34,791 nt of DNA. Source: a virus. Positions 32,974 through 34,610 of this stretch are shown piece by piece (positions within the stretch are counted from its first letter, which is position 1; each line of letters opens with the position of its first letter). The DNA is taken from positions 1-34,791 of the IMG/VR virus record IMGVR_UViG_3300032278_000051, one strand, 5' to 3'. A program made the translations under genes and the position numbers. Under the pieces are notes generated by a model, which saw only the letters and a program-made list of their open reading frames with translations, ran no database searches and was not told the DNA's origin.

Positions 32974-34610
32974 CCGATGCCATCCTTTACGCCCGCTATT
33001 CCACGGCGATGCAATCGCAGGAATCGGTCGAAGACCAGCTGCGCATCCTGCGCCAGCGCGCCGATCGGGAAGGCTGGCGCATCGTCGCCGAGGAATCCGA
33101 CCCGGCGGTCAGCGGCACCATCCGCAACCGGCCAGGGCTGGTCGCGGCGATCGCCGCAATCAACACCGGCCGCGCCACCATCCTGCTGGCCGAAAGTCTC
33201 GATCGGATTTCGCGCGACCAGGAAGACCTGGCCGGCATCTTCAAGCGCGTCCGCTTTTCCGGCGGCCGCATCGTCACGCTGTCCGAAGGCGAAGTCGGGA
33301 CGATGCACATCGGCCTGGGCGGGACGATGTCGGCGCTGTTCCTGGAACAGCTGGGCGAAAAGGTCAGGCGCGGCCATGCCGGCAGGGTCAAGGCCGGCCG
33401 CATCCCCGGCGGGCTCTCCTATGGCTACCGCAAGGTTTGCGCCTTCCGCGAAGATGGCGAGCCGGAACGCGGGCTGCGCGAAATCGATGAAGACCAGGCG
33501 GCCATCGTCCGCCGCATCTTCGCGGCCTATGCTGAAGGGGAAGGCGCCAGCGCGATCGCGCGCCAGCTGAATGCCGAAGGCATCCCATCGCCACGCGGCG
33601 GCCATTGGCGGGCGAATGCAATCGTCGGGCACCGGCAGCGCGGCAACGGCATCCTGCATAATCGCCTCTATATCGGCGAAATCGTCTATAATCGGCAGGC
33701 CTTCCGCAAAGACCCTGATTCCCGGCGCCGCGTCTCGAAACCGAACGAAGCCGAAGACCTGGTCCGCCAGGAAGTCCCCGAACTGCGCATCATCGACCAG
33801 GCCACTTGGCAGCGCGTCCAGCAGCGCCTGGATGACGCCGGCGGCCCGCGCGGTCGCCAGACGCGCAAGACGCGCCTTTTTTCGGGCAAGCTGCGCTGCG
33901 CCAGCTGCGGCGGCCCCGTCATCATCATTTCGACCGATCGCTGGGGCTGCAGCGCCTATCGCCAGACCGGAACCTGCGACAACGGCGTCACCATCACCGA
34001 CACGGTTCTGCAGCGGCGGGTCTGGGCGGCCATGCGCCGCGATCTGCTGCATCCCGATGTTGTCGCCGCCTATCTTGAAGAATTCCGCCAGGCTTGGGCC
34101 GAGGAACGCCGGCGACTGATCGCCGGCCGCGCCGACATCGATCGACAGCTGGCCGAGATTGACCAGCAGGAAGAACGCATCGCCGACGCGGTCCTGGCCG
34201 GAATCGCCCCGTCGAAGCTGAAGGCGCGTTCGGATGATCTGGCGCGGCAGCGCGAAGACCTACTGGCCGCGCAGGTCGACATGCCCGAAATTGAGCCGAT
34301 GATCGCTCACCCGACCGTCATCGCCGACTATCGGCGCCAGGTCGAAGGCATGGCGAAGATCGCGGCCGGCGAGCGCGAAGCGATCGACCAGGCGCGGCCG
34401 CTGCTGGACCGCCTGGTCGACTTCATCACTATCGCACCGCGCGCGGATGGCGGCCGAGGCGCCGACCTGCTTTTGCATGGCGACCTGGCGACCGTCCTGG
34501 GCTTTTCCGCGCCCGAACGCACAAACGCCGCCGACCCGAAGGACAGCGGCGATTGTATGCTAAGGATGGTTGCGGGGGTTGGATTTGAACCAACGACCTT
34601 CAGGTTATGA
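32970..34610 (+). CDS. int: Large serine recombinase (phage integrase)
   Basis: The 546-residue protein has an N-terminal resolvase domain with nucleophile Ser11 in YARYS and ESLDRISRDQEDLAGI. A recombinase domain follows (about 150-270), then a zinc ribbon (Cys310, Cys313, Cys327, Cys336) and a coiled coil (about 370-430). It should integrate and excise the prophage. The last 10 codons (after residue 536) come from tRNA-fMet read antisense, giving the tail VGFEPTTFRL, with the stop TGA inside the anticodon loop. In the excised circle the frame would run on from the core into 353-393 and end in ARFAREHTLQIAA, 549 residues. It is the last gene of the early operon. Confidence 0.95.
   Translation: MTDAILYARYSTAMQSQESVEDQLRILRQRADREGWRIVAEESDPAVSGTIRNRPGLVAAIAAINTGRATILLAESLDRISRDQEDLAGIFKRVRFSGGRIVTLSEGEVGTMHIGLGGTMSALFLEQLGEKVRRGHAGRVKAGRIPGGLSYGYRKVCAFREDGEPERGLREIDEDQAAIVRRIFAAYAEGEGASAIARQLNAEGIPSPRGGHWRANAIVGHRQRGNGILHNRLYIGEIVYNRQAFRKDPDSRRRVSKPNEAEDLVRQEVPELRIIDQATWQRVQQRLDDAGGPRGRQTRKTRLFSGKLRCASCGGPVIIISTDRWGCSAYRQTGTCDNGVTITDTVLQRRVWAAMRRDLLHPDVVAAYLEEFRQAWAEERRRLIAGRADIDRQLAEIDQQEERIADAVLAGIAPSKLKARSDDLARQREDLLAAQVDMPEIEPMIAHPTVIADYRRQVEGMAKIAAGEREAIDQARPLLDRLVDFITIAPRADGGRGADLLLHGDLATVLGFSAPERTNAADPKDSGDCMLRMVAGVGFEPTTFRL
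34567..34587. repeat. attR (right attachment site, in the tRNA)
   Basis: The 12-base core TGGTTGCGGGGG (34567-34578) is the CCA end and acceptor stem of tRNA-fMet on the minus strand. GATTTG at 34582-34587 matches attL as well. The tRNA stays intact after integration. The core also encodes Val-Ala-Gly of the recombinase. Confidence 0.82.

Follow-up and report, generated by a model that had tools for sequence, protein, structure and literature searches.

A P2-like phage integrase gene with the attachment site over its 3' end and a C-terminus predicted to be exchanged on integration into tRNA-Met

The integrase of phage Mx8, IntP, is a tyrosine recombinase, as are the integrases of the SSV-type archaeal viruses, whose integrase gene is split by integration. 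In Mx8 (and Mx9), the phage attachment site, attP, lies inside the integrase gene, and integration creates a new 3' end and an altered enzyme that is active with a changed specificity, as summarized in PMC6070905 (citing Tojo 1996 and Magrini 1999). The integrase of SSV-type viruses likewise extends across attP (PMC4383910), while mycobacteriophage BPs has its attP in the repressor gene and carries a tag on its integrase as well (PMC9262239, PMC4557955). According to the Islander catalogue of tRNA islands, no serine integrases are known that target tRNA genes (PMC4383910); a serine recombinase and a predicted tRNA-Met(CAT) site are part of the description of Paracoccus phage vB_PamS_Pami6, an active temperate phage of Alphaproteobacteria (PMC6536676). 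Here we analyzed the virus record IMGVR_UViG_3300032278_000051 over its whole 34,791 nucleotides (the window), in which a large serine integrase gene ends within a tRNA-Met gene. We assign a probability of about 0.75 to the reading that this P2-like phage has its attP over the 3' end of its own integrase gene, that integration swaps the C-terminus of the enzyme, and that the C-terminal tail of the phage form is selected.

Like that of Mx8, the attP of the window lies inside the integrase open reading frame (ORF), and integration changes the 3' end, but the window enzyme is a large serine integrase, its attP is dyad-symmetric, and the exchanged tail is very short. In contrast to BPs, whose integrase tag is not described as being removed by integration, attP sits in the integrase gene and the integrase itself is switched, and unlike in SSV-type viruses both forms of the enzyme are essentially full length. 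The Islander definition of a tDNA island includes a tyrosine integrase, whereas this element has a serine integrase. Pami6, compared here by its description only, differs in being listed as a siphovirus, and the excerpted description mentions no overlap between integrase and attP. A tail change on integration is thus known from Mx8 and serine integration in tRNA-Met from Pami6, while a widespread serine family that has both appears to be undescribed in the searched literature. The initial annotation, made from the DNA letters alone, knew of no attP inside a serine recombinase gene of a P2-like phage; this holds only narrowly, as the swap has a precedent in Mx8 and the use of tRNA-Met by a serine integrase has one in Pami6. 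What is new is that a broad serine-integrase family combines the two, and that there is evidence for selection acting on its phage-form tail.

As a provirus record, the window includes host DNA at either end, and its virion genes are of P2 type (P2 capsid, GPO, terminase, GpR, and gpI), in agreement with the earlier description of the phage as P2-like. The integrase matched the Pfam domains Resolvase (1.6e-21), Recombinase (6.4e-23), and Zn_ribbon_recom (8e-10), all above cut-off, and PHROG 95, integrase (7e-88); only serine recombinase domains were found, with no tyrosine-recombinase match. The catalytic serine of the N-terminal YARxS motif is present (S11 in P0001) and is invariant or nearly so in A1 and A2. 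The layout is that of a tDNA island, with an intact tRNA at one end and a 12-bp tRNA fragment at the other. The features concerned are as follows.

32970-34610, plus strand: large serine integrase gene in its prophage form, 546 amino acids, ending within the tRNA (Pfam and PHROG matches).
34567-34643, minus strand: tRNA-Met(CAT) of the initiator type (C1-A72), target and regenerated copy, with attR at its 3' end (ARAGORN; Rfam RF00005, 65.4 bits).
34567-34578, plus strand: attR core TGGTTGCGGGGG, with the predicted crossover GG at 34577-34578 (exact repeat of 341-352; dyad center).
341-352, plus strand: attL core TGGTTGCGGGGG, with the predicted crossover GG at 351-352 (exact repeat; empty attB, the bacterial attachment site, in the genus of a relative).
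34578-34610, plus strand: prophage-specific C-terminal codons VGFEPTTFRL and stop TGA, antisense to the tRNA, the first codon spanning the crossover.
352-393, plus strand: C-terminal codons of the phage form, ARFAREHTLQIAA, with stop TAG, read only from a joined attP (conserved in L106, Erythrobacter, and L146).
422-459, plus strand: terminator-like hairpin, following the phage-form stop in the circle (fold; a comparable hairpin can be read in L106 at this position).

The last 44 bases of the prophage-form ORF are antisense to tRNA-Met(CAT), from which its final codons and stop are drawn, and the protein ends in MVAGVGFEPTTFRL*. With one mismatch allowed, the 12-bp core matched the window only at its two listed positions (0.31 matches expected). 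When the two ends were joined via the core, the integrase frame stayed open and read MVAGARFAREHTLQIAA*, ending at the TAG at 391-393. Both frames predicted by the initial annotation, the one crossing the core into the tRNA and the one continuing into the left phage end, were thereby recovered. At the proposed terminator, the segment 415-465 folds into a strong hairpin (-29.1 kcal/mol, z -6.3) after the stop; a simple terminator scan of positions 300 to 1000 found 2 candidates against 1.1 expected and was not above shuffles. At the level of the coding sequence, circle and prophage were shown to encode two integrases differing only at the C-terminus, as had been proposed, and the tails of relatives have the same length and ending.

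These relatives were rebuilt in the same way. Erythrobacter sp. EC-HK427, with an integrase of 78% identity, has its left end in the corresponding position, and another genome of its genus has an empty attB, made up of a host gene and an intact tRNA-Met, in which the same host flank runs uninterrupted into the tRNA; the left end belonging to relative L003 was found on L106, a separate record from the same IMG genome. Three relatives with 68 to 79% identity gave 13-codon tails, ARFAHKHTLQIAA, VGFAQRHTLQVAA, and VGFGQCHKLLIAA, all with TAG, so that the four rebuilt tails of the window clade, including ARFAREHTLQIAA, share length and stop and end in LQIAA, LQVAA, or LLIAA. Left ends were not found for G361, G249, L139, L143, L145, and L147, nor was the window's own empty site. 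Natural counterparts came from IMG/VR contigs in which the integrase is followed by phage DNA rather than tRNA: in L157, L155, L161, L149, and L220 the frame is open through the attP center, with ends such as VAGARFGHKHTSPRYALSL* (L157), VAEEGLELQHTLRRIRV* (L155), and GFTHNHRLTRIVV* (L161). A complete free phage would be expected to have a terminal repeat, and one of 127 bp is present on the L161 contig; seven other contigs tested had none. The join made on paper thus occurs naturally in the integrase family, and the free-phage relatives proposed as a check on the open frame do exist.

Once rebuilt, the attPs of this family show dyad symmetry, with the final dinucleotide of the core at the center. 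That of G203 is a perfect palindrome, GTGAGATTGTGTTGGTAGCGGA-GG-TCCGCTACCAACACAATCTCAC, and the natural attPs of L149, L157, L161, and L220 have 17 to 20 of 25 mirrored positions centered on the same GG; the dyad of the window alone is weak (11/25, p about 0.03). A short dyad-symmetric attP of about 50 bp with a central crossover dinucleotide, as used by large serine integrases, is thus found, with the dyads clear in relatives and weak in the window, and a Listeria integrase structure has a DNA-binding half-site of 25 bp (PMC3783163). Two outer motifs share the same center.

34555-34559, plus strand: outer attP half-site motif GTATG on the integrase side.
370-374, plus strand: outer attP half-site motif CATAC on the left-end side.

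The pair GTATG-N36-CATAC occurs in the attPs of the window, Erythrobacter, and L106, and also in G338 and the natural L157. From the dyad and the limit of identity, we infer that the crossover is the last GG of the core, which narrows the earlier placement within the 12 bp and would put it at the junction of the acceptor and T stems. The phage would therefore supply only the CCA end and the acceptor strand of the tRNA.

The family is broad. Relatives of the window integrase were carried by 49 of the 398 genomes in the order of the Erythrobacter relative, and among 107 distinct integrases of the family, 77 have a C-terminal tail read antisense from a tRNA (71 of Met or Ser type and 6 of Gly type); identities range from 36 to 79%, and hosts, where known, are mostly Alphaproteobacteria. 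No close relative was found in the phage collection (best 36%) or the plasmid collection (none above 44%). Since a different frame runs into the tRNA-Met core in the sister integrases L037 and L043, with a stop shortly beyond it, reading of the integrase frame through the core is common but not universal.

Evidence for selection on the phage-form tail came from relatives. The five attP tails of group B (RSGLDRTLRRIRV and kin) are all of equal length (5/5) with TAG, TAA, or TGA as stop, of the 190 pairwise differences among them, 95 are at third codon positions (p = 1.5e-4, column permutation), and amino acid identity is 0.53 in frame compared to 0.23 in each of the other two frames. Most of the conserved residues are located past the half-site, and their codons vary synonymously. 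Because residues and stop position are kept despite synonymous changes and three different stop codons, these comparisons indicate that the phage-form tail is a translated and selected protein sequence, partly outside the DNA-binding half-site. We infer a functional difference between the two integrase forms; as the phage-form tail is selected, it is probably the phage form that is adapted to integration, the prophage tail being imposed by the tRNA.

In the mechanism that we propose, a P2-like temperate phage would integrate at the 3' end of tRNA-Met by means of a large serine integrase whose gene overlaps attP at its 3' end, with crossover at the GG ending the core. The phage-supplied CCA end and acceptor strand would stay on the tRNA, which would thus remain intact, while the same crossover would exchange the last 13 codons of the integrase, its stop, and its terminator for about 11 antisense tRNA codons. 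In the window clade, the likeliest role of the phage-form tail would be to limit the integrase through its IAA or VAA end, which resembles the end (AIAA) of the ssrA tag of the Erythrobacter host. The tag encoded by the transfer-messenger RNA is ANDNEALAIAA in that host and ANDNEALALAA in the host of another relative. Integration would strip off this putative degradation signal, and the resulting stable integrase would do no harm until excision was enabled by a directionality factor. For the window clade, a candidate degradation signal lost upon integration, as happens with the BPs repressor, would be an attractive reading. The full cycle, with an ssrA-like signal (LQIAA) in the free phage, a stable tRNA-derived tail after integration, and a return to the unstable form on excision, is a tentative and rather doubtful proposal; if true, it would be a built-in memory of the integration state that limits re-integration after induction.

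Several points weigh against all or part of this reading. The prophage-form integrase is known as a coding sequence alone, no natural attP from the window's own clade was found, so that its attP is the product of joining the ends, and the third-position excess was not significant in the window's group alone (29/72, p = 0.22), part of the tail there being also a binding site and few changes existing. The C-terminal motifs were picked post hoc, after the tails had been seen, and with groups treated as independent: a [VILMF]A[AC] ending occurs in 7 of 26 tail groups compared to 2.8% of background genes, and a nonpolar last residue (A, V, L, I, or C) in 22 of 26 compared to 40%. A plain AA ending was not significantly enriched (5/26 versus 8.3%, p = 0.06), and we therefore claim no general ssrA rule. 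Finally, the tails of groups B and C lack an ssrA-like end, and the degradation signal is thus not general.

The overlap could also be real and have no regulatory meaning, only the phage form mattering, with its C-terminus kept for integration and the tRNA-derived tail tolerated as a by-product. We give this slightly less than even odds, roughly on a par with any role in regulation. In line with a by-product, it is the phage-form tail alone that bears signs of selection, the prophage tail simply follows from the antisense strand of the tRNA, and tails vary widely among subgroups; the same architecture is, however, kept across a family of 36 to 79% identity and several tRNA targets, the IAA or VAA end of the window clade resembles the host tag, and nonpolar ends are enriched, albeit post hoc.

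It is improbable that the conserved tails merely reflect DNA constraints of the attP dyad arms, with the frame open by chance. The arms are indeed near-palindromic, the half-site takes in the first ~25 bp of the tail, and a 13-codon tail is not unusual for unconstrained DNA, but the conserved residues of group B, largely past the half-site, its in-frame identity, its synonymous codons, and its constant stop position argue otherwise. That the left repeat is no true attL, or that the exchange takes place further into the tRNA (anticodon loop), leaving the integrase end unexchanged, is very unlikely: L008, L025, L041, L048, and L144 do carry 45 bp of tRNA after the integrase, up to the stop codon, but the ORF after the L144 and L008 integrases reads by inspection as a tyrosine-type integrase, an intact tRNA is found past one further element in L041, L048, and L023, G423 has the same 45-bp remnant beside the host gene, and the dyads and the empty attB put the crossover in the 12-bp core.

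We rejected these five 45-bp copies as attPs unchanged by integration, since neighboring elements mark at least several as tandem insertions into a tRNA remnant, which another element appears to have left behind. Serine-integrase elements stand in tandem with other elements at tRNA-Met, in the 45-bp tRNA 3' remnant, in L144, L008, L023, L041/L082, and L048/L086, and what is left of one island apparently acts as attB for an integrase of a different type.

Further observations concern the surroundings. At 34645-34700 on the minus strand there are two hairpins, one with a T run behind it, just upstream of tRNA-Met in its direction of transcription and, by inspection, after the 5S end; they may cut tRNA-Met off from read-through of the ribosomal RNA operon. 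Silencing of the integrase by antisense read-through from that operon was considered and discarded, strong read-through being unlikely given the terminator-like hairpin upstream of the tRNA. A DNA methylase gene (32033-32818) lies directly upstream of the integrase, and a YdaS-like protein is encoded at 25344-25721 (Pfam, 4.6e-19). Toward the left end, a TAACATTCCTAACATTC-like motif occurs inverted at 502-534 and 747-779 (33-nt arms, 88%) and recurs near the left ends of L106, L014, L004, and L146, including phages with very different integrases.

The family offers serine integrases that act at tRNA ends together with their mapped attP/attB pairs and a defined crossover, which is useful in genome engineering. 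It is a serine integrase family that targets tRNA genes and has the target gene encode its own C-terminus, so that the integration state is visible in the integrase protein, and it allows a simple test of whether a phage retunes its own recombinase by recombination.
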